Below the pieces are notes generated by a model, which did not search any database, was not told the origin of the DNA, and worked only from the letters and a program-made list of their open reading frames with translations. The position numbers and the translations under genes are program-made. A stretch of DNA of 64,000 nucleotides, from the NCBI GenBank assembly GCA_008015505.1, contig SSFR01000001.1, positions 62,001-126,000 on the forward strand. Direction: 5' to 3'. The stretch comes from Pedobacter sp. Lineage in GTDB: Bacteria; Bacteroidota; Bacteroidia; Sphingobacteriales; Sphingobacteriaceae. Positions 5,796-22,488 of the stretch are shown here, piece after piece; the first letter of the stretch is position 1, and each line of letters opens with the position of its first letter.

Positions 5796-7070
5796 CTAAA
5801 TTAAAATTCCAGCTATTGTTGCTGATAGATAAGAAGCCAGTGTTCCGCAGATCAAAGCCTTCACTCCTAATTTAGCCAAATCCGTACGGCGCTCTGGGGC
5901 TAGCTCACCTATTCCACCAACCTGCATGGCAATCGAACTAAAATTGGCAAAACCACAAAGCGCAAAACTGGTGATGATTAATGTCTTAGCATCAATACTT
6001 GCTTTTAATTTAATCAGATCTAAATAAGCCACAAATTCATTAATCACCATCTTAGTCCCCATCAAAGAGCCTGCAGTCTGAACATCTTTCATCGGCACAC
6101 CCATCGTCCAAGCAAAAACAGAAAACAAAGCCCCTAGTATTTGGTTCAAACTTAAGGTGTTAATATCAATCCCAATAAAAGATAAAGACAGTCCTAAATG
6201 ACCTAGCCCAGATCCAACTCTACCTAATACATAGTCTAGTAGGGCGATAATAGCGATAAAACCCATCAACATAGCCACCACATTTAAACCTATTTTTAGA
6301 CCATCACTAGAGCCATGTGCAATCGCATCTACCAAGTTGGCGCTCGTTTTTTTAATTTCTAAAGAAACACTCCCTTTGGTTTCAGAAATTTCAGTCTCGG
6401 GCCATACGATTTTAGAAATCACCAAAGCCCCAGGAGCCGCCATCAAGCTAGCTGCAATCAGATACTCCGCAGGAACCCCTAAGGCAATGTAAACTGCCAT
6501 CACTCCCCCTGCAATGCAGGCCATACTCCCTGTCATGGAAGCTAGCAATTCAGACATGGTCATCCCCTTGATATAGGGTTTGATCATGATTTGAGCCTCT
6601 ACTTGACCAACAAAAGCACTAGCTACGTTAGACAAGGATTCCGATCCAGAGGCCCCAAGTAGTTTGTAAAATATCCAAGCGAAAAACTTAACCACACGCT
6701 GCATGACCCCAAAGTAATAAGCTACACTCACCAAAGCAGCAACAAAAACAATTGTGGGGATAATTTGGAAAAAGAAAATAAAATCATTCCCTGGCCCAAA
6801 GGCTTTATCCAGAAATTCCTTTTTCACTAATGGGCCAAAAACAAACCTAGCTCCTTCTGATGAAAATGCTAGTAGCTTAGTAACACCCACTCCTAGTTTT
6901 GCGAAAATTTCTTTTCCGATCGGAACTTTCAGAATAAATAAAGCCAATATAATTTGAAGACCTAATCCCGAAAAGATAAGCCTATAATTAATCGCTCTGC
7001 GATTATTAGACATTAAAAATGCAATAGCAAAAATCAGAACGATGCCAATGAGGCCAGTAAACCTTTCCAT
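5796..7070 (-). CDS. Concentrative nucleoside transporter, NupC family
   Basis: A Na+- or H+-coupled nucleoside permease of the inner membrane, about 424 residues from the chosen start. I prefer the ATG at 7070 (MERFTGLIG) because family members begin there; an upstream ATG at 7100 would add ten residues. Hydrophobic segments run the whole length. Family blocks visible are GSESLSNVASAFVGQVEAQI, with the conserved E and Q of the substrate region, and near the C-terminus LCGFANFSSIAMQVGGIG. It lies 30 bases upstream of gap on the same strand. Confidence 0.93.
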   Translation of the reverse strand: MERFTGLIGIVLIFAIAFLMSNNRRAINYRLIFSGLGLQIILALFILKVPIGKEIFAKLGVGVTKLLAFSSEGARFVFGPLVKKEFLDKAFGPGNDFIFFFQIIPTIVFVAALVSVAYYFGVMQRVVKFFAWIFYKLLGASGSESLSNVASAFVGQVEAQIMIKPYIKGMTMSELLASMTGSMACIAGGVMAVYIALGVPAEYLIAASLMAAPGALVISKIVWPETEISETKGSVSLEIKKTSANLVDAIAHGSSDGLKIGLNVVAMLMGFIAIIALLDYVLGRVGSGLGHLGLSLSFIGIDINTLSLNQILGALFSVFAWTMGVPMKDVQTAGSLMGTKMVINEFVAYLDLIKLKASIDAKTLIITSFALCGFANFSSIAMQVGGIGELAPERRTDLAKLGVKALICGTLASYLSATIAGILI

Positions 7071-7141
7071 ATAAAGAATTAAAAATCGAATTAGGCCCAA
7101 ACTTAGAAATAAGATCGGGATTATTAAAAGATGGTTACCCT

Positions 7142-7744
7142 TTAGACAGATTTTCTCCTAGATAAAATGTCTCTAATTTTAGCAGCCTTTTCATAAGCTT
7201 CTTCCCAAATAGCTTCTTGTAACTTGGCTTTTAATTCTTCATCGGGAAGAGAGGCATAATAATTCAAAGAAGTTGCACTTATTGTTTCTTCAACAGGGGC
7301 TTCCATATCTTCTAAAAGGACAAAGTCCGCACCTTCAATAACAATACCTGCAGTCGCAAGAATGAATTCGTAAATACAAATAGGACACTCAAACCGAACA
7401 GCTAGTGCAATTGCATCTGAGGTTCGCGCATCGATCTCAACCGTTTTATTAGTATTATCAACACATACTAGCTTTGCATAAAAAATACCATCCACTAAGT
7501 TGTAAATAATTACTTCTTGAATCGTGATGTGATATGACTGTGCAAAAGATTTAAATAAATCATGTGTGAGCGGACGACTTGGTGTCACTTTCTCAATCTC
7601 TATGGCAATAGCCTGTGCTTCAAACCCTCCAATAATAATGGGTAAACGCCTATAACCATTTACTTCCCCTAAAACCAAAGCATAAGCACCCGATTGAGTT
7701 TGACTGTAAGATAGTCCAACAATATTTAAATTAATTTTCTTCAT
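7142..7744 (-). CDS. Bifunctional nuclease family protein with UVR motif
   Basis: About 200 residues. The first 130 form a DUF151 / bifunctional-nuclease (BFN) domain, with IIGGFEAQAIAIEIE and DARTSDAIALAVRFECPIC as its conserved blocks. Residues 165-200 look like a UvrB/UvrC (UVR) helix pair (LKAKLQEAIWEEAYEKAAKI). The start at 7744 (MKKINLN) is chosen over 7786 because the domain begins there and the extra 14 residues have no family match. Biochemical activity of bacterial BFN proteins is poorly defined. It follows etfBA on the same strand but is separated from it by a long hairpin. Confidence 0.88.
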   Translation of the reverse strand: MKKINLNIVGLSYSQTQSGAYALVLGEVNGYRRLPIIIGGFEAQAIAIEIEKVTPSRPLTHDLFKSFAQSYHITIQEVIIYNLVDGIFYAKLVCVDNTNKTVEIDARTSDAIALAVRFECPICIYEFILATAGIVIEGADFVLLEDMEAPVEETISATSLNYYASLPDEELKAKLQEAIWEEAYEKAAKIRDILSRRKSV

Positions 7745-7861
7745 GTATGCTAATTTGTTTTTCGCAGTAGGTGTTTTAAATAGCATTCGAAAGGCCTGTA
7801 CTGTCTTGACTTTTTAATCAGTACCTCGAATAAAAACCGTTTTAGTCAAGGTACCGGTTAT

Positions 7862-7932
7862 TATCATTACAAATTATCGCAAAAATTATTAAAAATTTAT
7901 TAAATAAATAAATGCGATGATTTGTAATGATA
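7862..7932. terminator. Long imperfect hairpin after etfA
   Basis: Arms 7862-7881 and 7913-7932 pair over 20 bases with one mismatch (TATCATTACAAAT ... ATTTGTAATGATA). The loop of 31 bases is almost pure A/T. It lies about 64 bases past the etfA stop and 118 bases ahead of the next gene. It is probably the end of the etfBA transcript or an RNA-stability element. There is no clear U tail, so function is uncertain. Confidence 0.45.
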
Positions 7933-7995
7933 CGATTTTGAATATTTATTCGGGTGGTATTAGTTTTAATCGTTTACTATGGATAATATATCGAG

Positions 7996-8973
7996 TTAAT
8001 TATGGGCTTTGTAAGCCTTAATCGCTTCTGTTAACTTAGGTACGACTTCAAATGCATCGCCCACAACACCATAATCGGCGGCTTTAAAGAAAGGCGCCTC
8101 GGGGTCTTTATTAATAACTACTATAGTTTTTGATGAACTTACTCCCGCTAAATGCTGGATTGCTCCGGAAATACCTACTGCAATATACAAATTTGGACTA
8201 ATTGCGATACCTGTCTGACCAACATGTTCTTCATGAGGCCGCCAGTCTGCGTCAGAAACGGGTTTAGAGCACGCTGTTGCAGCACCTAATACATCTGCTA
8301 GCTCCTCGATCATCCCCCAATTTTCTGGACCTTTCATTCCTCGACCTGCAGAAACAACAAGTTCGGCTTCGGGCAGTGAAACTTTATTCGTTGCTCTGAC
8401 CACCTCTTTAATCGTAGCACTGAAATCAGACGCTTTTAATTCAACAACAAAGTCTTCTATAGTGGCCGTCAGCCCGTATTCTTTAAGTGGATACGAATTG
8501 GGATTTAATGTGATGATTTTTATCACCGAATCAATCTCAACAAAAGCATAAGCCTTACCTGAAAAAGCCGTCTTTTTAACGGTAAAAATATTATTGTCTA
8601 TTTGAGGCAACTCCAATACCCCATCAACCAAACCTGCCTGCAACTTCACTGAAACACGAGGGGCTAAACCCTTTCCTGAAAAAGAATTGGCCAGAACAAG
8701 TACATCCGCATTAATATGTTTCACAGCTTCTGCTAAAACAGTTGCATAAGCCTGGTTGGCAAAAGACTTTAATTTATCGGTACTAACTCGAAGTACTTTG
8801 GAGGCCCCGTAGTTTCCTAAAAGATTCAAGCTGCCCTGATCTACATCTCCAATAGAAATTGCCACCAATTCTGTCTTTAACTGATCTGCAATTGCTTTAG
8901 AATAAGAAACTACTTCAAAAGTGGATTTTTTGAACTTTCCACTAACGTTTTCTACATATACTAGAACTGACAT
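7996..8973 (-). CDS. etfA: Electron transfer flavoprotein, alpha subunit
   Basis: A 325-residue EtfA, which with EtfB forms the FAD/AMP-binding heterodimer that takes electrons from acyl-CoA dehydrogenases and passes them to the quinone pool. The C-terminal FAD domain shows SAGRGMKGPENW, the ATACSKPVSDADWRP block, and HVGQTGIAISPNLYIA followed by GISGAIQH. It lies 24 bases after etfB. Confidence 0.96.
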   Translation of the reverse strand: MSVLVYVENVSGKFKKSTFEVVSYSKAIADQLKTELVAISIGDVDQGSLNLLGNYGASKVLRVSTDKLKSFANQAYATVLAEAVKHINADVLVLANSFSGKGLAPRVSVKLQAGLVDGVLELPQIDNNIFTVKKTAFSGKAYAFVEIDSVIKIITLNPNSYPLKEYGLTATIEDFVVELKASDFSATIKEVVRATNKVSLPEAELVVSAGRGMKGPENWGMIEELADVLGAATACSKPVSDADWRPHEEHVGQTGIAISPNLYIAVGISGAIQHLAGVSSSKTIVVINKDPEAPFFKAADYGVVGDAFEVVPKLTEAIKAYKAHN

Positions 8974-8997
8974 ATTGTTTTATGGGTTGAAATGTAT

Positions 8998-9735
8998 TTA
9001 AATAACCTTTGCTTCAGTATGTAACAAGTTAACTAATTCAGCGATTTCTGCTTCCGACACTAGCTTGACTGTGCCCCGAGGAGCAGGAGTGCTGAACTTT
9101 TTAAATGTTAGAAACTTAGGCGTTTGGACAGGCTCAATCACTTGCAATGGTTTTGTTCTTGCCGACATAATCCCGCGCATGTTAGGAATCTTAGGTTCAG
9201 CTACCCCCTCAGCACAACTCACAATCACTGGTACAGAAACACTAACTACTTCCTTTCCCCCCTCAATTTCGCGATGAGCGGTCACCACCTGCCCGTCTAA
9301 TGCTAACTCTTTTACTATGGATATAGATGGAATATCTAAAAATTCACCAAGCATTGCAGCTACCTGCGAACCATTATAATCAATTGACTCACGACCTGTA
9401 AGAATCAAATCAAACCCTTTTCCCCTAGCATAAGTAGCAATCTGGTTCGCTACAAAATAAGCATCTCGAGGTGCAGCATTAATACGAACAGCATCATCAG
9501 CTCCTATAGCAAGCGCTTTACGAATAGTTGGCTCACTACTAATCTCTCCTACGTGTATAACAGTAATTGTTCCCTTCCCCCCCTCAGCCAACTCGATAGC
9601 ACGAGACAGCGCAATTTCATCATAAGGATTAAGAACGAATTGTACCCCAGTAGTATTGAATTGGGTATTTTCGTTGGTAAAGGTTATTTTTGTCGTGGTA
9701 TCCGGGACGTTACTCACACAAACTAAAATTTTCAT
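8998..9735 (-). CDS. etfB: Electron transfer flavoprotein, beta subunit
   Basis: A 245-residue EtfB. Recognisable blocks are the N-terminal KILVCVSNVPDTT, DLILTGRESIDYNGSQV near residue 115-130, and SVPVIVSCAEGVAEPKIPNM with the family signature. It binds AMP and the recognition loop for partner dehydrogenases. First gene of the etfBA operon. The putative promoter lies about 260 bases upstream, giving an unusually long leader. Confidence 0.96.
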   Translation of the reverse strand: MKILVCVSNVPDTTTKITFTNENTQFNTTGVQFVLNPYDEIALSRAIELAEGGKGTITVIHVGEISSEPTIRKALAIGADDAVRINAAPRDAYFVANQIATYARGKGFDLILTGRESIDYNGSQVAAMLGEFLDIPSISIVKELALDGQVVTAHREIEGGKEVVSVSVPVIVSCAEGVAEPKIPNMRGIMSARTKPLQVIEPVQTPKFLTFKKFSTPAPRGTVKLVSEAEIAELVNLLHTEAKVI

Positions 9736-9994
9736 GTGTTCAATTTATTTTTATTGGTCATGATTAGTCATGAACCGGGTTAATTATTCAGGACTCGTAA
9801 GGGTTACCCTTCTTGGCCTGTGATGATTTCACAGCTATATAAGTTTTATTATTTAGGTACTTCTCAAAGTAGAGATAATGTTTAAAAATGCTCGCTCCTT
9901 TCTACTTAATTGAAGATGCATAAAGGGCCTTGTGTTCAATCTGATTAACAAATACTGACTGAAAATAATTCCATATTAAGGCCCCGATTTTGCA

Positions 9995-10002
9995 CAAAAG
10001 TA
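9995..10002 (-). promoter_or_regulatory. Putative -7 box for etfBA
   Basis: On the minus strand this reads TACTTTTG, a match to the Bacteroidota -7 element TAnnTTTG, followed by TGC. A good TTG is missing at the expected distance upstream. If used, the etfB leader is about 255 bases long and contains the symmetric sequence CTGTGA-TGATT-TCACAG at 9819-9835, which resembles a Crp/Fnr-family half-site pair but with a five-base spacer. Confidence 0.35.
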
Positions 10003-10031
10003 GTTAAAAATTGTACACCACATTATAGATT

Positions 10032-10370
10032 ATGCAAAGCGACAATCGGCTTGAACAACTTCTGAAATTTCTAAAACAAGAACCTGATGACCCATTCCTA
10101 CAATATGCCCTGGCAACAGAACATCTTCGCAGAAATAAACTTGAACTAGCATTATTTTATTATGAGAGTTTAGTGGACAAACACCCCTCCTATTTGGGAA
10201 CATATTATCACCTAGGCAAACTTTATGAACAACTGGATCGTCAGGCAGATGCCATAAAAACTTACCAAACCGGGATGCAACTAGCCAAAGATACTGGAGA
10301 CCTGCATGCCTTTTCCGAATTACAAAATGTTTATAATGCAATTATTAGATTAGACTATGAAGACGACTAA
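10032..10370 (+). CDS. Small TPR-repeat protein
   Basis: A 112-residue protein made of about two and a half tetratricopeptide repeats (DPFLQYALATEHLRRNKLEL, then YLGTYYHLGKLYEQLDRQAD). It has no signal peptide. TPR helices mediate protein-protein contacts; the partner is unknown. Its 3' end overlaps the start of the chromate transporter by 14 bases, so the two are translated from one transcript. Confidence 0.8.
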   Translation: MQSDNRLEQLLKFLKQEPDDPFLQYALATEHLRRNKLELALFYYESLVDKHPSYLGTYYHLGKLYEQLDRQADAIKTYQTGMQLAKDTGDLHAFSELQNVYNAIIRLDYEDD

Positions 10371-11583
10371 GCTAAGTCGTTTAAGAAAAAAAAACAAACT
10401 TCTCTTTTTGAGGGATGTAATTTGGTTTACACTATCTGCTTTTGGTGGCGCACAAGTTCATGTCAGTATGATGCTCCGCGATTTTGTCAAAAAACGTAGA
10501 TATATTACAGAACCTGAGCTCTTTGAACTCAATGCCTTAACTCAAGTGCTCCCTGGACCAGCTTCTACACAAACCTTAGTCGGCATTGCTTATAAAGTAG
10601 GTGGCCTGCCTGTTGCCATCATTACTTTTTTAATCTGGGTTCTCCCTTCTGCCATTGTCATGGGGGCTGCAACTATCAGCTATTCTTTACTCGATCAAAA
10701 GGATAAGCTTGATCACGTGACGGAATTTATCCAGCCAATGGCTGTTGGTATTGTCGCCTTTGCCACTTATACATTTGGTAAAACAGTCTTAAAAACCGGG
10801 GTGGGCATATGGTTAGCTATAGCCTCATTCATCACAAGCCTTATTTTAAGAAATGCTTATGTGTTTCCTATTTTGATTCTACTTGGTGGGGTCATTTCAT
10901 CCGCTATAGAGACTCCTTTGGAAGAAAGCCGACTGAGGTTTAAGCTATTTTCCAATATCAACCCAAAAAAAATAGCCTATTTCATTGGCATATTACTATT
11001 TTTTGCTACGCTCGGGGCATTAATAAGCCGAACCTCTCCATTTAGTTTGCCTATTCGCTTGTTTGAAAATTTTTACCGAAATGGTATCCTCATTTTTGGT
11101 GGTGGTCAGGTACTAATTCCTTTTATGTTCACAGAATTTGTAGAGATGAAGCATTACCTCAGCTCAGAAGAGTTCCTATCAGGTTTTGCTTTACAGCAAG
11201 CACTCCCCGGACCAACCTTCGCTTTCACCTCTTTTTTAGGGGGTATGGCCATGAAAAATGCCGGATGGGGAATGTCTGGTCAAGCACTAGGAAGTTTGGT
11301 TGCCGTAATAGGTATTAACCTACCGGGTCTTATCCTCATTCTTTTTATCGTCCCCTTCTGGAATGATTTGAGAAAAATTACACGAATCAAAAATTCATTA
11401 TCGGGTATTAATTCAGTTTCAGTAGGTTTTATGGGAGCAACATTTCTTTTTCTACTACACCCAATCAATCTCAATTGGCAAGCTATTGGAACGATGGCCT
11501 TCACTTTTTTGATATTAACTTTTACTAAAGTGAAGACCCCCATTTTAATCTTAATAGGAATTTTATTGGGATTCCTTTTTTAG
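10357..11583 (+). CDS. chrA: Chromate transporter, ChrA/CHR family
   Basis: A 408-residue membrane protein with the two-domain CHR architecture. The first domain shows FTLSAFGGAQVHVSMMLRDF and LTQVLPGPASTQT (residues about 24-75). The second repeats the pattern as FGGGQVLIPFM and LQQALPGPTFAFTSFLGGM (about residues 245-295). The duplicated PGP motif is diagnostic. CHR proteins export chromate, or act on sulfate-like anions; actual substrate here is not proven. The start overlaps the TPR gene. Confidence 0.9.
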   Translation: MKTTKLSRLRKKNKLLFLRDVIWFTLSAFGGAQVHVSMMLRDFVKKRRYITEPELFELNALTQVLPGPASTQTLVGIAYKVGGLPVAIITFLIWVLPSAIVMGAATISYSLLDQKDKLDHVTEFIQPMAVGIVAFATYTFGKTVLKTGVGIWLAIASFITSLILRNAYVFPILILLGGVISSAIETPLEESRLRFKLFSNINPKKIAYFIGILLFFATLGALISRTSPFSLPIRLFENFYRNGILIFGGGQVLIPFMFTEFVEMKHYLSSEEFLSGFALQQALPGPTFAFTSFLGGMAMKNAGWGMSGQALGSLVAVIGINLPGLILILFIVPFWNDLRKITRIKNSLSGINSVSVGFMGATFLFLLHPINLNWQAIGTMAFTFLILTFTKVKTPILILIGILLGFLF

Positions 11584-11604
11584 CAATAATTTGCCCTCGC
11601 TTTT

Positions 11605-11852
11605 ATCTCTCCTAATTCATCGTACATTTCAATGAGTCCCTTAGGGTTGTGCAAATTGAAGGGACTATTCTCACTATTGTTCCTAACGACAATAAAATGA
11701 CAAAGCAAACGATGACTCATAAAGTAGACAATCATCAATCATCCTTAAGCCGAATATGAATCTATCAGAGGTAAGGTGCTCAATAAATCACTTACTACTA
11801 ACATAATTCAAATCAGATAAGGCACAATAGAGAACTATTTAATTGTAATCCT
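11605..11852 (+). pseudogene. Decayed C-terminal fragment of an HlyD-type adaptor gene
   Basis: This otherwise empty 310-base gap contains a recognisable relic of the adaptor gene at 21160-22488. In one frame, 11646-11700 reads VVQIEGTILTIVPNDNKM, matching FVQAGEAIFTIVPNRNKM of the intact protein. After a frame change, 11753-11850 reads EYESIRGKVLNKSLTTNIIQ, stop, then GTIENYLIVIL, matching EYGSIRGKV..., SLTTNVIQ and GAVENYLIIV. At the DNA level GAATCTATCAGAGGTAAGGT at 11759-11778 matches the intact gene except for one base. It has frameshifts, an internal deletion and a stop, and no start. It shows a second exporter locus once stood here. Confidence 0.8.
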
Positions 11853-11893
11853 TCTTTCATTATTTTCACCTCGATTTATTTCATCAAAACCAC

Positions 11894-13372
11894 ATGCCCC
11901 ATAACCATTCTAAAAAATTTCAACGAAGCTTAGTATGGCTACGTCGAGATCTTCGCTTAAAAGACAATGCCGCACTTTACAAAGCACTACAGCAAAGTGA
12001 ACACGTATGGTTATTATTTGTACTCGATAAAGAAATACTAGATCCTTTGATCGAACAAGGCTTAACAAAGGATCGTCGGCTTAGTTTTATATACGATTCT
12101 TTAGAAGAATTAAACAACACTTTGGCTTCGCTCGGAACGGGTTTAATCCTTCGTCATGGGCAGGCACGCACCTGTGTCCCCGAAATAGCTGAACTTTTAC
12201 AAGTAGATGCCGTATGGACCAATCAAGACTATGAGCCTATGGCTATTGCTCGTGACCGTGATATTGATTTAATATTAAAAAAAAATAAACGGCATTTTTT
12301 TTTACTGAAGGACCAAACCATTTTTCACCAAAATGAAATTTTAACTAAATCTGGACAAGCTTATTCGATTTTTACACCTTACAAAAAAGCTTGGCTAGAA
12401 AAATTAACACCATCACATCTTCTGCCTTATTCTATAAAACCCTACTTAAATGCACTAGCCCCTATTCCCGATCACATGACTCCTCATTGGCCAAGCCTGG
12501 AAAGCATTGGTTTTCAACGGCAGCCTTTATCACACCCTGGAGGCACGCGTGGTGCTCAAATATTATTAAACAAATTTTCTGAACACGTCAGTCTCTATCA
12601 TCTTCAAAAAGATTATCCAGCTCTATCAGGATCTAGCGAGCTCTCTGTTCATTTGCGCTTTGGTACCATTTCTATACGACAACTTGCACAGTCCGCTTAC
12701 ACAAAAATGCAGGCAGGAGATCCAGGGGCCAAAAGCTGGTTATCCGAGCTTATTTGGCGAGACTTTTACTTCATGATTTTATATCATCACCCTAAACTGG
12801 CAGAAGGCGCCTCCTTCAAGCCAGAATACGACGCCATTGAATGGGAAAGGGGCCCTCAAGCACAGCTCCTTTTTGAGACTTGGTGTAAAGCCACTACTGG
12901 ATATCCAATCATTGATGCCGCAATGCGGCAACTCAATCAAACCGGATGGATGCATAATCGTTTGCGGATGATCGTTGCTAGTTTTCTCTGTAAAGACTTA
13001 GGTGTCGATTGGCGATGGGGAGAGTATTATTTTGCACAACAGCTCAACGACTTTGACTTAGCTGCTAACAATGGCGGCTGGCAATGGGTTTCTTCCAGCG
13101 GCTGTGATGCTCAGCCTTATTTCCGAATTTTCAACCCCATATTACAGTCTAAAAAATTTGATCCTGAAGGAATTTTTATTCGAAAATATATCCCAGAATT
13201 GCGACAGCTACCCAACCAATGGATTCATTGTCCTTGGCTAGCTCCAACAAATACACTTTCAGATTTGGGAGTAAAACTTGGAGAAAATTATCCCCAACCC
13301 ATCATAAACCATCAGTATGCCCGAGAGCAAACTTTAAAACGCTACGCTACTGTCAAAACTCAAGCAAAATAA
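11894..13372 (+). CDS. Deoxyribodipyrimidine photolyase / cryptochrome family
   Basis: A 492-residue flavoprotein of the photolyase family that repairs UV-induced cyclobutane pyrimidine dimers with blue light. The N-terminal antenna domain begins LVWLRRDLRLKDNAAL (residue about 13). The C-terminal FAD domain shows LSVHLRFGTISIRQL, LIWRDFYFMI, TGYPIIDAAMRQLNQTGWMH, the NRLRMIVASFL block and NDFDLAANNGGWQW, ending FRIFNPILQSKKFDP. All lie in the class I (CPD photolyase) pattern. It sits between the hlyD relic and the cassette array and reads in the same direction; no functional link is evident. Confidence 0.93.
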   Translation: MPHNHSKKFQRSLVWLRRDLRLKDNAALYKALQQSEHVWLLFVLDKEILDPLIEQGLTKDRRLSFIYDSLEELNNTLASLGTGLILRHGQARTCVPEIAELLQVDAVWTNQDYEPMAIARDRDIDLILKKNKRHFFLLKDQTIFHQNEILTKSGQAYSIFTPYKKAWLEKLTPSHLLPYSIKPYLNALAPIPDHMTPHWPSLESIGFQRQPLSHPGGTRGAQILLNKFSEHVSLYHLQKDYPALSGSSELSVHLRFGTISIRQLAQSAYTKMQAGDPGAKSWLSELIWRDFYFMILYHHPKLAEGASFKPEYDAIEWERGPQAQLLFETWCKATTGYPIIDAAMRQLNQTGWMHNRLRMIVASFLCKDLGVDWRWGEYYFAQQLNDFDLAANNGGWQWVSSSGCDAQPYFRIFNPILQSKKFDPEGIFIRKYIPELRQLPNQWIHCPWLAPTNTLSDLGVKLGENYPQPIINHQYAREQTLKRYATVKTQAK

Positions 13373-13533
13373 TTAAACACTATTAGACAGGCTTAGTATC
13401 TCAAAGACCCAAAACAAGCTAAATCGCAACCCACCCCCCATAATAATAGAATAAATTTCAAATAATTTCTTAATTTTTTTCGCTGAAATTTATCGTAGCA
13501 TTGCATTTTCTAACTTCAACACACCTATTTTTC

Positions 13534-14754
13534 ATGAAACAAAAATTCCAATTAAAAAATCTCTTAAAAAAGAAACCAGCACGATTGACCATTGCCGAAA
13601 TGATGATCGATCCGGCATTTACAGTTTTAACCGACGAGCAAAAGGCAGCGAAGAAGGCGGGATTTACGGATGAGCAATTTAATCGGAACGACTTTGAAAG
13701 TGCCAATTTAAGATTGGTGAGCAACAACGGCTTTAATCCTGTAAATAATCATTTAGGCCGAGGAGGTAGCCATAACTTTACTAGCAGCTTTCCCCATGCA
13801 TCAAGCATGGATACAGAGGTTAAACCAGAGGTTCGTACAAGTGGTGGGGAACCTACCTATCTTGGCCGCCATTTGCCTGAAGTGAGAATAACTGCTACCC
13901 CTATTCATGGTCCTAGTAATCACTACGGTCCCTTTGATGCCAACTACTTCAATCCTTCAAATATTAAAAGACGCCTTAGAAACATACGGGAAGCAAAAGA
14001 AGCTGCAGCCAAGTTAAAGAAAGAACAAAATGCAGAAATGCGTCGTATAGCTTCTCAATTTTCGGGTAATGGTACTACTCTCGAACAAGAGACTTGGTAT
14101 GTAGAGGCAAGGATGAAATATAGCCCAGAATTTTATCGTAATAATCGTCCAAAGTATGCGCCTCATACCCCCAGCACGAATGTTACTACACCTGTTACAG
14201 AAGAGATGTTAGCTAAATGGGCTGCTGAAATAACCCCAGAATCTCCCTCACTATCTGAACAACTAGTTAAAGATCCGAGTAAATCCACAGATAAATTTTC
14301 AGTGAATACAACGCCACTCCCTAATGGCTCCAATTTAGGAAGCAGCATTACTGGACCTGGAACAGACCCCTTGAGGTCGGCAGTATCTAAAGTTCAGGTA
14401 GCAAATCCATCTTTTACATACAATGGATCTACTGGGCTGTATGATGCAATGGTAAACATGATAAGTTCTGTTGATCTAACACTTTCAGGTACCCAGGCTG
14501 CTGCTAAGGTGATGGAGGTAAACCTGCCTAAGTTTATGGGGGTAGCAGGGAAGGTAGCACCTTTAGGGGGACTTATAGATAATGGTGTTCAAATATCTCA
14601 AGGCTTTAATTGGAATGATGCTGCTCAGCTGGCAGTTGGGGGTGTTTTGGTAGGCTTTAGTGCTACATTAGGAGCTCCAGTCGTGTTTGTAGGTGGGCTT
14701 GGTTTATTTGTATGGGAGTTGGGTGAGACTTATTTAGAACAAAACAAGAATTAG
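13534..14754 (+). CDS. Cassette 1 bacteriocin-like secreted protein
   Basis: A 406-residue protein I do not recognise from any named family. The N-terminal 45 residues (MKQKFQLKNLLKKKPARLT, AEMMIDPAFTVL, TDEQKAAKKAGF) are almost identical in cassettes 2 and 3. The middle is polar and differs between copies; it contains GRHLPEVRITATPI, a motif also present in copy 3. The last 120 residues are conserved in all three: LYDAMVNMISSVDLTLSGTQ, then a glycine/alanine-rich hydrophobic hairpin ending VFVGGLGLFVWELGETY. The ATG at 13534 is preferred to an in-frame TTG at 13501 because homology between copies begins there. The membrane-protein gene starts two bases after the stop. Linkage to a C39 exporter and a paired membrane protein suggest an exported toxin; activity is inferred. 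Confidence 0.7.
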   Translation: MKQKFQLKNLLKKKPARLTIAEMMIDPAFTVLTDEQKAAKKAGFTDEQFNRNDFESANLRLVSNNGFNPVNNHLGRGGSHNFTSSFPHASSMDTEVKPEVRTSGGEPTYLGRHLPEVRITATPIHGPSNHYGPFDANYFNPSNIKRRLRNIREAKEAAAKLKKEQNAEMRRIASQFSGNGTTLEQETWYVEARMKYSPEFYRNNRPKYAPHTPSTNVTTPVTEEMLAKWAAEITPESPSLSEQLVKDPSKSTDKFSVNTTPLPNGSNLGSSITGPGTDPLRSAVSKVQVANPSFTYNGSTGLYDAMVNMISSVDLTLSGTQAAAKVMEVNLPKFMGVAGKVAPLGGLIDNGVQISQGFNWNDAAQLAVGGVLVGFSATLGAPVVFVGGLGLFVWELGETYLEQNKN

Positions 14755-14756
14755 TC

Positions 14757-15176
14757 ATGGGATTACCAAAATATTTCATCTTTTTAATTTTCAATCATTA
14801 TTACAGAGATGGGAACTATAAGGAAATAGAGGTACCTTACTTTACTGCTGCTGCAAGTATAGCGGTATACGAGAGCTTCATACTTATTGTAGCCATGCAT
14901 TTTATAAAAAACTATATAAATTTTGCGCTCCCGTTTAATCTTTTAAGCTCTCTGGATGGGATAATTTATGGAAGGGGGATGCTTATTCTAGCGTTGATAT
15001 ATCCTGTTAATCACTATTTTTTAATTACAAAGAACCGTTTTGATCGCATTTATAATGAATTTAAAAATGCTAAAATGAACACAAAGAAGAACAGAATAAT
15101 TGGCTACATCTGCTTGATACTCTATTGGCCTATAATGGTTGGGATAATCGGTCACTTAAAATACTGGTTCCCCTAA
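14757..15176 (+). CDS. Cassette 1 membrane protein, putative immunity
   Basis: A 139-residue protein with three or four hydrophobic segments (about 5-15, 30-55, 75-97 and 113-135). It shares with its paralogues in cassettes 2 and 3 an N-terminal YRDG motif, the block YNEFKNAKMNTKKNRIIGYI, and the C-terminal GHLKYWFP. It begins two bases after the large protein stops, so the two are translated together. One small membrane protein per toxin-like protein is the usual layout for immunity to pore-forming bacteriocins, where the immunity protein sits in the inner membrane. That role is inferred; no known family was recognised. Confidence 0.65.
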   Translation: MGLPKYFIFLIFNHYYRDGNYKEIEVPYFTAAASIAVYESFILIVAMHFIKNYINFALPFNLLSSLDGIIYGRGMLILALIYPVNHYFLITKNRFDRIYNEFKNAKMNTKKNRIIGYICLILYWPIMVGIIGHLKYWFP

Positions 15177-15301: not shown

Positions 15302-15385
15302 ATGTTAAAATCCTTCCCCAACGAGCGGCAGCTTGATATGATGGACTGTGGCGCTGCTTGGCTGAAAGCAATCAATATTAAATAA
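15302..15385 (+). pseudogene. Truncated copy of the C39 exporter 5' end, first
   Basis: The sequence from the terminator through 15358 is nearly identical to 18747-18914, the region leading into the intact exporter gene. It encodes MLKSFPNERQLDMMDCGAA, including the catalytic-Cys motif of the C39 domain, then diverges to WLKAINIK and stops (27 residues). It is a footprint left where a later cassette was inserted in, or recombined at, the start of the exporter gene. It is too short to be a peptidase. Confidence 0.85.
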
Positions 15386-15507
15386 TCATTAAAGTAAATT
15401 TCATTATCTAAATAATTTCAAAAATCATTTTTAGAATAAAATCATTTACACTAGAATTGCGCCAAAATAAATCAACGACTCTACTCAATTCAACACACCT
15501 ATTTTTT
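15302..15507 (+). repeat. 206-bp direct repeat, copy A (copy B 17218-17423)
   Basis: 15302-15507 and 17218-17423 align without gaps and differ by a single base (T/C three bases... immediately before the ATG region). The repeat holds the exporter footprint and the whole 5' region of cassettes 2 and 3, so both cassettes share the same promoter and leader. Identity continues with few changes into the first 45 codons. Cassette 1 shares only the last 20 or so bases (AACACACCTATTTTT) before its ATG. No strong TTG / TAnnTTTG pair is seen; TAGAATTG at 15452-15459 is a one-mismatch -7 box. Confidence 0.9.
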
Positions 15508-16704
15508 ATGAAACAAAAATTCCAATTAAAAAATCTCTTAAAAACCAAACCAGCACGATTGACCATTGACGAAATGATGATCGATCCGGCATTTACAGTT
15601 TTAACCGACGAGCAAAAGGCAGCGAAGAAGGCGGGATTTACGGATGATGTTTTGGTTAACAACAACTTTGAAAGTCGTGTTGGGCTAATGAATGTTAGTC
15701 GGGCTGAAACAAAGTTCACTCGAACAAAGAGAGATGGTGGTGGTATGTTTGGGGCTAATGGCAGTGGAGCGACTGTAGTAGGATCACCAATTAACAATGG
15801 CAATACTAACTGGAGTGGTGGTCCCAGCGGATCGATGAGCGGCTCCAATCCTACAGGAAATCAATCTCAATCTGGGGATGGCTCGCCGCATACGACACCA
15901 CAATACATTAAATATCAAACACTTATACATGCAAAACATGCTGATAAACTTTCCCATGCGAGTATTCAACCTATCACCCAAAAAATCAAACAAAAACCAC
16001 CAGTGCTAATAAAGCTTACTCCGACCATATCACCTACTAAACCTAGTGTTACTCCAGATGCATCAAGAAAACCTGAATTAGTCCCCAGTATTAATCCTAT
16101 AAATACGCCAAAAGTCGAAACAGGAGCTTCCCAGAGTACACTTGTTAATACGAGTCTTGTTGACAAAACTAATGTGGGAGATGAGTGGAAATATAAAAAC
16201 GGGGGAACTTCCATTCCCTTACCAGAAGTACTTGTTAAGACTACCCCGACTAATAAAACAACTCCATTACCTAATGGCTCCAATTTAGGAGGCAGCATTA
16301 CAGGCCCTGGAACAGATCCCTTGAGGTCGGCAGTATCTAAGGTTCAAGTAGCAAATCCATCTTTTACATACAATGGATCTACTAGGCTGTATGATGCAAT
16401 GGTGAACATGATGAGCTCTATTGATCTAACACTTTCAGGTACCCAGGCTGCTGCTAAGGTGATGGAAGTAAACCTTCCCAAGTTTATGGGGGTAGCGGGT
16501 AAAGTATCTTATTTGGGTCCTCTTGATAATGTGAGACAAATAGCAATGGAGGGATTTAACTGGAATGACGCTGCACAAGCAGTGGCAGGAACTGTTTTGA
16601 TAGGCTTTAGTGCAACTTTAGGAGCGCCGGTAGTTTTTATAGGCACTCTTGGCTTATTTGCTTGGGAACTAGGCGAAACGTATATAAATCAACAGAAAAA
16701 CTAG
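15508..16704 (+). CDS. Cassette 2 bacteriocin-like secreted protein
   Basis: A 398-residue paralogue of the cassette 1 protein. The leader is the same except for a few residues (LKTKPARLTIDEMMID). The middle is different: glycine/serine-rich (NGNTNWSGGPSGSMSGSNP), then a Thr/Pro/Lys-rich stretch with repeats of TPTISPTKPS type, then PLPEVLVKTTPT. The C-terminal 130 residues match cassette 1 closely from PLPNGSNLGGSITGPGTDPL onward, ending in the hydrophobic hairpin VFIGTLGLFAWELGETY. The start is the ATG at 15508; an in-frame TTG 51 bases upstream is outside the conserved coding region. The partner membrane gene begins immediately after its stop. Probably exported by the downstream C39 transporter; toxin role inferred. 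Confidence 0.7.
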   Translation: MKQKFQLKNLLKTKPARLTIDEMMIDPAFTVLTDEQKAAKKAGFTDDVLVNNNFESRVGLMNVSRAETKFTRTKRDGGGMFGANGSGATVVGSPINNGNTNWSGGPSGSMSGSNPTGNQSQSGDGSPHTTPQYIKYQTLIHAKHADKLSHASIQPITQKIKQKPPVLIKLTPTISPTKPSVTPDASRKPELVPSINPINTPKVETGASQSTLVNTSLVDKTNVGDEWKYKNGGTSIPLPEVLVKTTPTNKTTPLPNGSNLGGSITGPGTDPLRSAVSKVQVANPSFTYNGSTRLYDAMVNMMSSIDLTLSGTQAAAKVMEVNLPKFMGVAGKVSYLGPLDNVRQIAMEGFNWNDAAQAVAGTVLIGFSATLGAPVVFIGTLGLFAWELGETYINQQKN

Positions 16705-17127
16705 ATGATGAGACTATTGAGATATTTAATTTTTTTAACCTTCAACATTTCTTACAGAGATGGCCACGTTAAAATAAATAGCACACCAAGGGCTGATGCC
16801 ACTTGTATTCTAATGTTATATGAATACTTGATCGCTATAGTCTGCATATTCTTTTTGAGCAAACACGTAGATTTGGGTTTAATTTCTGATACCCTAAATC
16901 CTCTAGACAACATGGTTTACGGATGGGGTATGTTAATGTTCATTATAGGCTATCCAATAAACTACTACTATTTCGTAAAAAAGGGCTGGCTCGATAGCGT
17001 ATATATGGAGTTTAAAGATGCTGCAATGAACACTAAAAGGAACCGGATTATCGGCTATATCTGCTTGATTTTGTATCTGTTAATAATGATCGCAATCATT
17101 GGCCATCTAAAATACTGGTTCCCTTAA
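16705..17127 (+). CDS. Cassette 2 membrane protein, putative immunity
   Basis: A 140-residue paralogue of the cassette 1 partner, with the same arrangement of hydrophobic segments, the YRDG motif near residue 18, NTKRNRIIGYICLILY and the terminal GHLKYWFP. The N-terminal two thirds differ more than the C-terminal third, as expected if that part is matched to the variable region of its own toxin. The ATG directly follows the toxin stop codon; a second in-frame ATG at 16708 is equally possible. Immunity role inferred from position. Confidence 0.65.
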   Translation: MMRLLRYLIFLTFNISYRDGHVKINSTPRADATCILMLYEYLIAIVCIFFLSKHVDLGLISDTLNPLDNMVYGWGMLMFIIGYPINYYYFVKKGWLDSVYMEFKDAAMNTKRNRIIGYICLILYLLIMIAIIGHLKYWFP

Positions 17128-17217: not shown

Positions 17218-17301
17218 ATGTTAAAATCCTTCCCCAACGAGCGGCAGCTTGATATGATGGACTGTGGCGCTGCTTGGCTGAAAGCAATCAATATTAAATA
17301 A
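17218..17301 (+). pseudogene. Truncated copy of the C39 exporter 5' end, second
   Basis: Identical to the fragment at 15302-15385: 19 exporter codons up to the catalytic-Cys motif DCGAA, then the same divergent WLKAINIK tail and stop. The upstream spacer is shorter by about 30 bases than in copy one. Two identical footprints show that the unit was duplicated after the first footprint formed. Confidence 0.85.
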
Positions 17302-17423: not shown

Positions 17424-18310
17424 ATGAAACAAAAATTCCAATTAAAAAATCTCTTAAAAACCAAACCAGCACGATTGACCATTGCCGAAATGATGATTGA
17501 TTCGGCCTTTACAGTTTTAACCGACGAACAAAAGGCAGCGAAGAAGGCGGGGTTTACGGATGATGTCTTGGTTAACAACAACCTTGAAAAGAGTATCGGG
17601 CTAATGAATATCGATGGACTTGAATCCAAATTAACTCGAACAAAGAGGAGTAATTATGGACGCCAATTACCCGAAGTAGTAATAACTGCATCCCCTATCA
17701 ACCACAATAACGACCACTATTCCCAAGCTACCAATAATCCATTTAATACACCAGATCCTCATCAAGCCAGAGACCAACAGAGACGTATTTCAGCTCGATA
17801 TAAGTTTTTCCTAGCACAGACCGAGAAATCATAAACGCAAACAAGGGAAAGAACAAGCCCTTTTTTCAAGGAATAAATCCTATTTACTCAAGAACAGAGC
17901 TACGAACTATTCCCAATCCTAATTATAATGCTATAACTCCCGTGAAAAACCCTCCTTTTAAGTTCAATGGATCTACTAAACTGTATGATGCAATGGTAAA
18001 CATGATAAGCTCTATTGATCTGACGTTTTCAGGTACCCAAGCTGCTGCCAAAGTAATGCAAACTAGCCTTCCCAAGTTCCTTGGAACAGCAGGAAAAGTG
18101 ACTCCATGGGTAGGCATTGTAGACAATGTCAGACAAATGACTATTGAGGGTTTTAATAGAAATGATGTAGCTCAATTAGCCACTGGAGCAGCCTTAATAG
18201 GAGTGGGTTTTGTTGGCGGCACGGCAGCAGCACCTGTTGTATTTGTTGGCGGTCTAGGCTTGTTTGTTTGGGAGCTAGGAGAAGCATACATGAGCCAACA
18301 AAAGAATTAG
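17424..18310 (+). pseudogene. Cassette 3 bacteriocin-like protein, frameshifted
   Basis: The leader and middle run from 17424 to a stop at 17832 (136 residues); they include the conserved leader and GRQLPEVVITASPI. The conserved C-terminus continues in another frame, open from 17804 through 18310, and contains KLYDAMVNMISSIDLTFSGT and the hydrophobic hairpin ending FVWELGEAY. The total of 887 bases is one short of a whole number of codons. The frames can only be joined between 17804 and 17832, and the run of five T at 17805-17809 is the obvious site: one more T would give a 295-residue protein. This may be a real mutation, slippage control, or a sequencing error. The C-terminal part could be started alone at GTG 17942. 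Confidence 0.75.
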
Positions 18311-18312
18311 TA

Positions 18313-18732
18313 ATGAGAGTCTTGAGATATCTCATCTTTTTAATATTCAATCTATCCTACAAGGATGGTAATCACCAAGAGAATGATATGCCGCATGTAG
18401 GAGCTGCTTCTATTGTAATGGGTTATGAATGTTGTATGCTTGTTATATTCGCCTTCTTTTTTAACAAATACATGAATCTTACATTCATTACCAATATTTT
18501 AAAGCCTTTGGATAATATAGTATATGGTTGGGGAATGCTCATATGTATATTCATGTATCCAATCAATCATTATTATTTTATCAAAAAAAATCACCTTGAC
18601 CATATCTATAATGAATTTAAAAATGCCAAGATTAACACAAAGAGAAATCGAATCATAGGCTATACCTGCCTGATACTTTATTGGCCAATAATGGTCGCAG
18701 TTGCTGGCCACTTAAAATACTGGTTCCCCTAA
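18313..18732 (+). CDS. Cassette 3 membrane protein, putative immunity
   Basis: A 139-residue paralogue of the partner proteins in cassettes 1 and 2 (YKDG near residue 17, NEFKNAKINTKRNRIIGYTC, GHLKYWFP end). The ATG at 18313, two bases after the toxin stop, is chosen over an upstream in-frame ATG at 18268 because it aligns with the paralogues. It stays intact although its toxin is broken, which is what would be expected if it protects against related toxins still made by the array or by neighbours. Role inferred. Confidence 0.65.
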   Translation: MRVLRYLIFLIFNLSYKDGNHQENDMPHVGAASIVMGYECCMLVIFAFFFNKYMNLTFITNILKPLDNIVYGWGMLICIFMYPINHYYFIKKNHLDHIYNEFKNAKINTKRNRIIGYTCLILYWPIMVAVAGHLKYWFP

Positions 18733-18857: not shown

Positions 18858-21110
18858 ATGTTAAAATCCTTCCCCAACGAGCGGCAGCTTGATATGATGG
18901 ACTGTGGCGCTGCTTGCTTGAAAATGATTGCCAAATATTACGGCAAATACTATTCTCTTCAATTTTTTCGAGATAAATGCGGCCTAACTAAAGAAGGGGC
19001 TTCTATGCTCGATTTGAGTTACGCGGCCGAAAGTGTGGGTTTACATACCCTTTCGATCACTTGTACAATGGAGGAATTACTCAAACGCGTGCCTTTCCCC
19101 TGCATCATTCATTGGAATGAAAACCACTACATCGTGGTTTACAAAGTGTCAAAAACTACGGTATATGTTTCTGATCCAGCCAAAGGCCATGTAAGCTATA
19201 CATTAACCGAATTCGATAAAAAATGGCATAAAAACGAGCAAGGCAAAGGAACCTTGATGACCGTGGAACCGCAAGCTGACTTTAAGCAAAGAGAAGGCAT
19301 GCAGCGACTCGAGCGCAAAAAGACCTTTGAAAACATATTGGGCTATTTTACGCCCTATAAAAATAGCTTCATCAATTTATTTGTCGTCATGCTGATTGTG
19401 ACTGCTTTGGAAGCTTTGTTACCCTTTATCTCAAAAGCAGTGATTGATGTGGGTATTCAAACACAGGATCTTAATTTTATCAATATTGTACTGATTGCCA
19501 ACATTACCATCATTGTGAGCATCACCCTGTCGGACATTGTACGCGATTGGATTATGCTACATCTAGCTTCGCGCATCAATATCGCATTGATTTCAGATTA
19601 CCTCACCAAGTTGATGAAACTCCCCATCACCTTTTTCGAAACCAAAATGACAGGCGATATCCTGCAGCGTGCTAACGATCATGAACGGATTCGCAGTTTC
19701 ATCATGAACAATTCGTTAGGCGTCATTTTCTCGACCATCACCTTTGTAGTGTTTGGCGTGATTTTATTGATTTATAATAAGATGATATTCTCCATTTTCC
19801 TAGCTGGGAGTATCTTATATGTACTCTGGGTGTTTGCCTTTCTTGCCATCCGCAAGAAGTTGGATTGGGAGTATTTCGAAATCGAATCAAAAAACCAAAG
19901 CTATTGGGTCGAAACGGTAGGTAGCATCCAAGACATCAAACTAAATAACTACGAAAAATTGAAACGCTGGAAATGGGAGGGTATTCAGGCCCGTATGTTT
20001 AAAGTGAACTTGAAGGTGTTAAACATCAATAATTTTCAAAACTCGGGAGCCCATTTTATTGACCAGCTCAAAAATTTGTTGATCACCTTTTGCTGCGCCC
20101 GAGCAGTGATTGCAGGAGAAATTACATTTGGGGTGATGATTTCCACCCAATTCATTATTGGGATGCTGAATGGTCCAGTCGTGCAATTTATTCAGTTTAT
20201 TATTGCCGGTCAATTTGCTAGAATCAGCTTTTTACGTCTCAACGAAATTCATCAGCTCGAAGATGAAGACGAAAATATGGGCATGGGTAGCATCGAACTT
20301 CCTAGTAATAAGGATTTATTCTTGGATAATATCGTGTTTCAATACTCACCCAATGCACCAGCAGTGCTCAAAGGGATTCACCTAATCATTCCCGAAGGGA
20401 AAATAACGGCTATTGTAGGTGATAGTGGGAGTGGTAAATCGACTTTGCTGAAAGTGATTTTGCGCTTGTATAAACCCTCGTACGGGCAACTACTAATCGG
20501 CGGGATGAATGTAAACAATATCAGTTTACGCCAATGGCGCGATCGCTGTGGCGCAGTGATGCAGGATGGAAAAATGTTTAATGATACCATTTTAAACAAC
20601 ATTGTACTCGATGATGAGCGCATCGATTACCAACGATTGAAGCATGCAGTAGAAACGGCCAATATTGCTTTTGAAATTGAACAACTGCCCTTGGGCTATC
20701 AAACCATCATGGGTGAACAAGGTCGCGGTTTGAGTGGAGGTCAGAAACAACGAATTCTCATTGCCCGTGCATTATACAAAAACCCTGATTTTTTAATTTT
20801 CGATGAGGCGACCAATGCATTAGACACCATCAATGAACAAAAAATTGTGTCTGCACTGGAAAATGTATTTCGGGGTAAGACTGTCATAGTGGTTGCACAT
20901 CGCTTAAGCACCATCCGAAAAGCCGATCAAATTGTGGTGATGCGTGATGGTATGATAGCTGAAATAGGGGACCATGAATCGCTGATGAAACAACAAGGAC
21001 GGTACTACCAACTAGTGCAATCGCAAGTAGACTTAGTCTCAACTGTAGAACTTTTAGCGGAACATAAGTGTGACGTAAGGGCAAAACGCTTGGTAGTAGA
21101 TACCCATTGA
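18858..21110 (+). CDS. C39-peptidase ABC exporter (PCAT)
   Basis: A 750-residue peptidase-containing ABC transporter of the bacteriocin/microcin export type. The N-terminal C39 domain (about 1-135) has Gln10, Cys16 in MMDCGAAC, His90 in NENHYIVVY and Asp106 in VSDPAKG, so it looks catalytically complete. Six membrane segments follow (about 165-430), then the ATPase domain: Walker A GDSGSGKST (about 520), signature GLSGGQKQR, Walker B LIFDEATNALD and the switch His in VAHRLST. It would cleave leader peptides on the cytosolic side and export the core with the HlyD partner and a TolC-like channel. It lies after the three cassettes and is the presumed exporter of their large proteins. Confidence 0.95.
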   Translation: MLKSFPNERQLDMMDCGAACLKMIAKYYGKYYSLQFFRDKCGLTKEGASMLDLSYAAESVGLHTLSITCTMEELLKRVPFPCIIHWNENHYIVVYKVSKTTVYVSDPAKGHVSYTLTEFDKKWHKNEQGKGTLMTVEPQADFKQREGMQRLERKKTFENILGYFTPYKNSFINLFVVMLIVTALEALLPFISKAVIDVGIQTQDLNFINIVLIANITIIVSITLSDIVRDWIMLHLASRINIALISDYLTKLMKLPITFFETKMTGDILQRANDHERIRSFIMNNSLGVIFSTITFVVFGVILLIYNKMIFSIFLAGSILYVLWVFAFLAIRKKLDWEYFEIESKNQSYWVETVGSIQDIKLNNYEKLKRWKWEGIQARMFKVNLKVLNINNFQNSGAHFIDQLKNLLITFCCARAVIAGEITFGVMISTQFIIGMLNGPVVQFIQFIIAGQFARISFLRLNEIHQLEDEDENMGMGSIELPSNKDLFLDNIVFQYSPNAPAVLKGIHLIIPEGKITAIVGDSGSGKSTLLKVILRLYKPSYGQLLIGGMNVNNISLRQWRDRCGAVMQDGKMFNDTILNNIVLDDERIDYQRLKHAVETANIAFEIEQLPLGYQTIMGEQGRGLSGGQKQRILIARALYKNPDFLIFDEATNALDTINEQKIVSALENVFRGKTVIVVAHRLSTIRKADQIVVMRDGMIAEIGDHESLMKQQGRYYQLVQSQVDLVSTVELLAEHKCDVRAKRLVVDTH

Positions 21111-21159: not shown

Positions 21160-22488
21160 ATGACTACAACATCCACCCTAAAAAATAAATTCCACCAACG
21201 AGCTGAACGTACCGAAGAAATACAGGACATCATCGATCGGATGCCTACCAGCTTTGCTAAATGGATATCCATCATTGTGGGATGCTTGTTTATCATTCTA
21301 CTGGTACTGGGTTGGTTTATTCGTTATCCCGATATTGTTACGGGACAAGTAACAATAAATGCCAATAACTCTCCTATCAAGCTAATTGCAAATAGCGCCG
21401 GGAAATTGCACTTGTTAACGCAGTCGTATCAAACTGTTAAAGAGGGAGATTATGTGGCTTATGTTAAAAATTCAGCCAACATGGATGATGTCAAAAAGGT
21501 AAGTGACTTGATGCATCATTTCAATATTAATTCTGAAAGAAGCATTGATCAATTGTCCCTTTTTCCAAAGGATGTTTCTTTAGGAGAGTTGAACGTGAAA
21601 TATTTTGCCTTTATTAATGCCCTACAGCAATTGTCCAATTATCGTAAAGAAAATCTATTTGCTGAGCAACGCGAAATTTTGGAACACATCATCATTAAAC
21701 AGCGTGCAATATTACAAGCATCTAAACAAAAGCTACTTTTTAACAAGCAAAATCTCGCTTTAACTAAGAAATTCTACATACGCGATTCAACTTTATTGAG
21801 CCAAAATGTGTTGGCACACGCTGATTTTGATAAAACTGAAATGGGCTATCTCAATGCCAAAGACGGTTATCTAAGTATGCATCGCGAAATTATCCAACAC
21901 AATCAACAAATTCGGGAAACAGAAAATAAATTACAACAAACCATCATTCAGGAACATGAGAAACAAAAACAAATGAATTTGGATTTAGCTTCTACCTACA
22001 CCGATTTGACTGATCATTTGGAACAATGGGAGCAAAAATATGTTTTCAAGTCACCTATGGATGGTAAAGTACAGTTCCTAAAATTTTGGGTTAATAATCA
22101 TTTTGTGCAAGCTGGAGAGGCCATTTTCACCATTGTTCCCAACAGAAATAAAATGGTAGGACAGGTGAATTTACCTTCCTCAGGGGCGGGTAAGGTAAAA
22201 GTAGGGCAGGGGGTAATTCTTAAACTAGAAAATTATCCTTATGTCGAATATGGATCTATCAGAGGTAAGGTGCGCAACATATCACTTACTACCAATGTGA
22301 TTCAAACTGGACAAGGCGCAGTCGAGAATTATTTAATTATTGTGGATTTACCAGATCAATTAAAAACTAATTATGGTTCTAGGCTCGATAGCAAGTTTGA
22401 GATTAAAGGTCTAGCTGAAATAATTACGAAAGATAGACGCCTAATTGAACGCTTGTTCGATAATTTGAAATATTCAGTAAAAAATTAA
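21160..22488 (+). CDS. HlyD-family secretion adaptor
   Basis: A 442-residue periplasmic adaptor anchored by one N-terminal membrane helix (about residues 38-57, ISIIVGCLFIILLVLGWFIR). It is followed by a biotinyl-like half (SPIKLIANSAGKLHLL), a long coiled-coil region (about 140-285) and the second lipoyl half with KSPMDGKVQFLKFWVN and GEAIFTIVPN. It bridges the C39 exporter to an outer-membrane channel. It starts 49 bases after the exporter. No TolC homologue is in this operon; the nearest, at 23796, belongs to the metal efflux operon. A decayed relative of its 3' part lies at 11605-11852. Confidence 0.93.
   Translation: MTTTSTLKNKFHQRAERTEEIQDIIDRMPTSFAKWISIIVGCLFIILLVLGWFIRYPDIVTGQVTINANNSPIKLIANSAGKLHLLTQSYQTVKEGDYVAYVKNSANMDDVKKVSDLMHHFNINSERSIDQLSLFPKDVSLGELNVKYFAFINALQQLSNYRKENLFAEQREILEHIIIKQRAILQASKQKLLFNKQNLALTKKFYIRDSTLLSQNVLAHADFDKTEMGYLNAKDGYLSMHREIIQHNQQIRETENKLQQTIIQEHEKQKQMNLDLASTYTDLTDHLEQWEQKYVFKSPMDGKVQFLKFWVNNHFVQAGEAIFTIVPNRNKMVGQVNLPSSGAGKVKVGQGVILKLENYPYVEYGSIRGKVRNISLTTNVIQTGQGAVENYLIIVDLPDQLKTNYGSRLDSKFEIKGLAEIITKDRRLIERLFDNLKYSVKN

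Follow-up and report, generated by a model that had tools for sequence, protein, structure and literature searches.

In a Pedobacter genome, the chromate transporter gene chrA and a DNA photolyase gene are separated by a gap of 310 bases (11584-11893), located in a window of 64,000 nucleotides, which is the whole stretch of DNA analysed here. An earlier note saw in this gap the broken remains of a second hlyD adaptor gene, and thus the end of a former export locus. Is there indeed a copy of hlyD in the gap, and if so, is it what remains of a deleted locus, or was it incomplete and without function from the start? The features needed to follow the first part of the argument are these:

10357-11583, + strand: chrA (chromate transporter, PF02417), the final gene in a genus-conserved block
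11647-11699, + strand: hlyD relic, block 1, matching 22103-22155 (77%)
11700-11736, + strand: spacer between the relic blocks, 37 bases for 75 of hlyD (net deletion), with weak homology
11737-11844, + strand: hlyD relic, block 2, matching 22231-22338 (82%), with two in-frame stops
11894-13372, + strand: divergent DNA photolyase gene, unlike the type found in the genus
21160-22488, + strand: live hlyD adaptor gene (PF13437), the intact counterpart of the relic
22509-23597, - strand: mnmA, bounding the genome-specific stretch on the right

Homology of the gap to the live hlyD gene

Both relic blocks lie inside the gap on the same strand as hlyD and are collinear with its 3' part, with 41 of 53 bases identical in block 1 and 89 of 108 in block 2 (blastn E ~2e-24 to 5e-26 for the latter). 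Together they span codons ~315-393 of the 442 in hlyD. The local alignment between the relic and hlyD scores 154, which none of 1000 dinucleotide shuffles reaches (mean 33.1, maximum 61, z ~26). Among 196 other 310-base tiles of the window, the highest score is 52. A chance resemblance, in favour of which nothing can be said, is refuted by these figures. Comparing the gap with the rest of the window yields, besides the gap itself, the two hlyD blocks. The alignment proposed in the earlier note has therefore given a score far above that of shuffled sequence, and the frame-broken copy of the hlyD 3' part that it described between chrA and the photolyase gene is real.

The copy is somewhat shorter and more diverged than had been thought. 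The homology is not significant in the left flank of the gap (11584-11646, where 80 of 1000 shuffles are as good) or in the right one (11845-11893, 901 of 1000), so that the ends first given, 11605 and 11852, are slightly too wide and the supported range is 11647-11844. Between the blocks, the spacer is matched by 20 shuffles in 1000, hence the weak homology. With an identity of 77-82% and one exact run of 20 bases, "near-identical DNA" was too strong a description. The relic is closer to the live hlyD of the window (82%) than to the other full-length copy of the genome, which lies on contig C15 (76%).

Substitutions and decay in the relic

The frame is broken by the net loss of 38 bases between the blocks, and the two stops of block 2 lie in the frame of hlyD. 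Since the genome holds the full copy on C15, whose protein is 75% identical to the live HlyD, the changes can be assigned to the relic, live and C15 branches. By codon position, this three-way comparison gives 5/8/5 changes specific to the relic, 3/1/3 specific to the live gene and 4/6/21 specific to the C15 copy (relic versus C15, third position against the rest, Fisher p 0.009). By effect, counting codons wholly inside the blocks and setting aside six sites that differ in all three sequences, the relic has 5 silent changes, 12 replacements and 1 stop; the functional paralog on C15 has 21 silent changes and 9 replacements, and the live gene has 7 changes (3 silent, 4 replacement). Random changes would be silent in 23% of cases. 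The argument is built on small numbers, 161 aligned bases with 18 relic-only changes, but along this measurable branch the changes look neutral: the relic drifted without coding constraint, which speaks against a long working life as a second exporter. Because its changes have this neutral look and those of the functional paralog are mostly silent, the relic was probably non-functional from its duplication or soon after. Given the few changes, a short functional phase is conceivable.

Loss of coding function need not mean loss of all function. The stretch immediately precedes the start codon of the photolyase gene, and it might have been kept as a regulatory leader of that gene, its resemblance to hlyD reflecting mere origin. 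This is improbable: the RNA of the relic region folds no better than its shuffles (z 0.01), no Rfam family reaches its gathering score (between 11400 and 12000, the sole match at E<=1 is far below it and lies mostly inside chrA), and a scan for sigma-70-like sites, a model that leaves out Bacteroidota-type promoters, finds 7 of them in 11300-13600 for 6.7 expected. Read as a pseudogene, the relic would have no function of its own. It resembles the gene remnants and pseudogene fragments treated by Pseudofinder (PMC9336565), being likewise a truncated, frame-broken and neutrally drifting copy of a gene of the same genome. There is no essential difference from such ordinary fragments, except that the relic also marks a break in synteny and that its intact counterpart lies ~10.5 kb away in direct orientation.

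A genome-specific stretch at a rearranged site

Up to the end of chrA, the gene order is that of the genus. The block 5796-11583, six genes with chrA as the last, is kept in all five genus relatives examined. Among twelve chrA neighbourhoods, drawn from the 18 genus relatives with chrA, eleven have dnaB directly after it, and the contig of the remaining one (G004) stops after chrA. In this genome chrA is followed by the relic, the divergent photolyase gene, three toxin-immunity cassettes, an ABC exporter gene and hlyD; dnaB sits on contig C8, where the listing of open reading frames, the only source consulted for that place, displays no hlyD or exporter remains that would hint at a rearrangement mediated by hlyD. 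On the other side, mnmA adjoins topA in two of the three relatives examined, with a 259-residue frame between them in one, while here topA is ~24 kb to the left and on the opposite strand. Because the chrA-dnaB and mnmA-topA orders both differ from those of the relatives, the stretch from the relic to hlyD is lineage-specific and occupies a rearranged site. The place of topA explains part of the reshuffling. With regard to a possible integrated mobile element, the window contains no tRNA, and no integrase is recognised by eye among its listed open reading frames.

Homology, broken frame, neutral substitution pattern and this position at a synteny break are what the relic displays directly. We consider, with a probability of about 0.72, that the gap holds a fragment of an HlyD-adaptor pseudogene, a duplicated or rearranged copy that died early, at the left edge of the genome-specific stretch. 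We infer the following course of events. After the hlyD of the window had split from its C15 paralog, a copy of its 3' part would have been placed beside chrA by duplication or rearrangement. This copy would have been non-functional at once or very soon, and would then have drifted, lost bases and gained stops. It would now mark the left edge of the genome-specific stretch, at the point where the ancestral chrA-dnaB order was broken.

The relic could also have arrived with incoming DNA that brought the photolyase gene or the cassettes, never having been a copy of the resident hlyD. The photolyase does look foreign to the genus, being 44-48% identical to the genus photolyases when chrA and mnmA are at 66-86% (70% for one cut-off mnmA piece). 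In a tree of 31 rows (its own, 29 of the 43 matched relatives and one from a separate search), it falls outside the genus with a long branch, and a topology in which the genus stays one group is rejected (p-AU 0.0017), with the caveats that the branch is long and that the remaining genus rows do not form a single group either. Its best matches in plasmid records are from Cupriavidus, at ~54% over the full length. The photolyase is thus probably foreign, and the whole stretch is genome-specific within the sample. An outside origin of the relic itself is nonetheless rather unlikely, as the resident hlyD, at 82%, is the sequence most like it of anything found, and the nearest HlyD from another species has 40% protein identity. 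HlyD relatives at E<=1e-60 are found in 14 of 395 class genomes, this one included, the best of the others having that same 40% identity; a related-locus search for HlyD found one distant locus among genome contigs (30% identity) and none among viral contigs.

The live exporter, its cassettes and their scars

Between the photolyase gene and hlyD, the window carries the following:

13534-15176, + strand: cassette 1, a secreted-toxin-like precursor (13534-14754) and a membrane protein, likely an immunity protein (14757-15176)
15302-15367, + strand: scar, a copy of the initial 66 bases of the ABC exporter gene, with 64 of 66 bases matching 18858-18923
15502-17127, + strand: cassette 2, a precursor and a likely immunity protein
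17218-17283, + strand: scar, a second copy of these initial 66 bases, again with 64 of 66 matching
17424-18732, + strand: cassette 3, a broken precursor gene and a likely immunity protein (18313-18732)
18858-21110, + strand: ABC exporter with an N-terminal C39 peptidase domain, cysteine kept (PF03412, PF00664, PF00005)

The C39 domain of the exporter scores 124 bits with PF03412, for a cut-off of 22, and keeps its DCG motif. The HlyD adaptor reaches 46.7 bits with PF13437 (cut-off 22.2) and 102 bits with TIGR01843, below the cut-off of 208.65. Like the systems of the AMS/PCAT type (PMC6363468), the live locus joins a C39-peptidase ABC exporter that has its cysteine to an HlyD protein. It differs from them in its precursors of ~400 residues and in an unusual leader without a double glycine; the relic itself encodes nothing. 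This leader of 46 residues is nearly invariant in cassettes 1-3 (13534-13671 in cassette 1), and has A42-G43 but no double glycine, though the exporter keeps the C39 cysteine. The genome G376 has the same order as the live locus: precursor, small membrane protein, ABC exporter and HlyD. A literature search found no paper on this locus, although such papers may exist. Two other loci of the genome deserve mention. On C15 (5119-13454, L059), a paralogous ABC/HlyD pair, to which the second hlyD belongs, adjoins a 1547-residue RTX-type protein, and in the C39 domain of its exporter a Ser replaces the Cys that the five other C39 exporters aligned all keep; a recent switch from a peptidase exporter to one with a C39-like domain is possible. 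On C13 (3916-7318, L135), there is a third C39-peptidase ABC exporter with an HlyD-type adaptor, only distantly related.

Cassettes 1 and 2 match no family in Pfam or NCBIfam. In cassette 3, the precursor frame ends at 17834, and an open frame for the C-terminal part resumes at 17942 and runs to 18310; the immunity gene is intact. When the cassettes are compared in 100-base steps, identity is 88-98% at the leader ends and 98-99% beside the ABC start, and in the interiors it is mostly 55-85% where they can be aligned, with one step at 95%. Judged from these alignments, this looks like cassette exchange or insertion at conserved flanks. The scars, which stand behind cassettes 1 and 2, came to light through a 17-base likeness between 11604-11620 and the stretch before the ABC start codon, which was itself not significant (E 7.6). 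Tandem duplication of whole units, from toxin to hlyD, was considered as the source of both the scars and the relic, and is not supported: there are no hlyD traces between the cassettes, and the ~130 bases that precede cassettes 2 and 3 are for the most part absent before cassette 1.

Could an older and complete locus, with ABC and hlyD genes and perhaps a toxin of its own, once have stood between chrA and the photolyase gene and decayed until only the hlyD 3' part was left? In its favour, the relic is truly copied from hlyD and borders the live exporter island on the left, and the two scars from the 5' end of the ABC gene show that exporter sequences have turned over repeatedly in this island. 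Against this, the gap shows nothing recognisable of the ABC gene (183 of 200 shuffles do equally well), of cassette 1 (135 of 200) or of cassette 2 (41 of 200), and hence nothing of a toxin or immunity gene. The relic branch does not have the excess of silent changes expected from a functional phase, and the fragment is truncated at both ends, beginning at most 64 bases past the chrA stop. A former complete locus is therefore doubtful, and the data do not bear out the statement that an older export locus had its end in the gap. The photolyase gene does lie between the relic and the live exporter. In relatives, neither an intact exporter upstream of a photolyase gene nor any other linkage of the two was found in three exporter and two photolyase neighbourhoods; this is a weak test, since no close relative of the exporter was found among 395 class genomes (best other 40% identity). 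A full exporter could have been cleanly deleted, leaving only the relic piece, with contig breaks and the missing close relative hiding the ancestral state. Of these two origins, the remnant of a deleted locus and a partial copy without any working life, the second is favoured by the substitution pattern, and a partial duplication that had no function from the outset fits no worse than a former complete locus.

The relic is by itself an ordinary kind of gene fossil, and the region around it is more interesting. The toxin C-terminal domain and the immunity family recur on contig C12 (8033-9120, L133), between type VI genes (by Pfam: Hcp, TssC, VipA, TssK, TssG, TssF, gp25 and a Clp-type ATPase), and on contig C21 (392-1863, L132), where they adjoin a VgrG-like gene. 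At E 0.001, only two others matched the immunity family among 395 class genomes. The predicted fold of the toxin domain is poor (mean pLDDT 42) and was not used, and a profile search of solved structures found no match below E 0.25. From the position of these genes, the type VI system may deliver proteins of the toxin family. We tentatively propose that the array turns over by recombination at conserved flanks before one peptidase exporter, that the exporter scraps, both the ABC-gene starts behind cassettes 1 and 2 and the older hlyD piece at the left edge, are the scars of this turnover, and that the toxin family is also delivered by the type VI system. If this is true, a single arsenal would be common to two unrelated machines, the same toxin-domain and immunity family being delivered by the type VI system as well.

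The relic provides this history with a relative time marker. The ABC-gene scars, with 64 of 66 bases kept, resemble their source more than the relic resembles hlyD (77-82%), and are thus probably younger; this points to a duplication of exporter sequence in this lineage well before the cassette array took its present form. With scars between cassettes and one toxin-immunity family at two secretion systems, cassette exchange between the systems would become testable.
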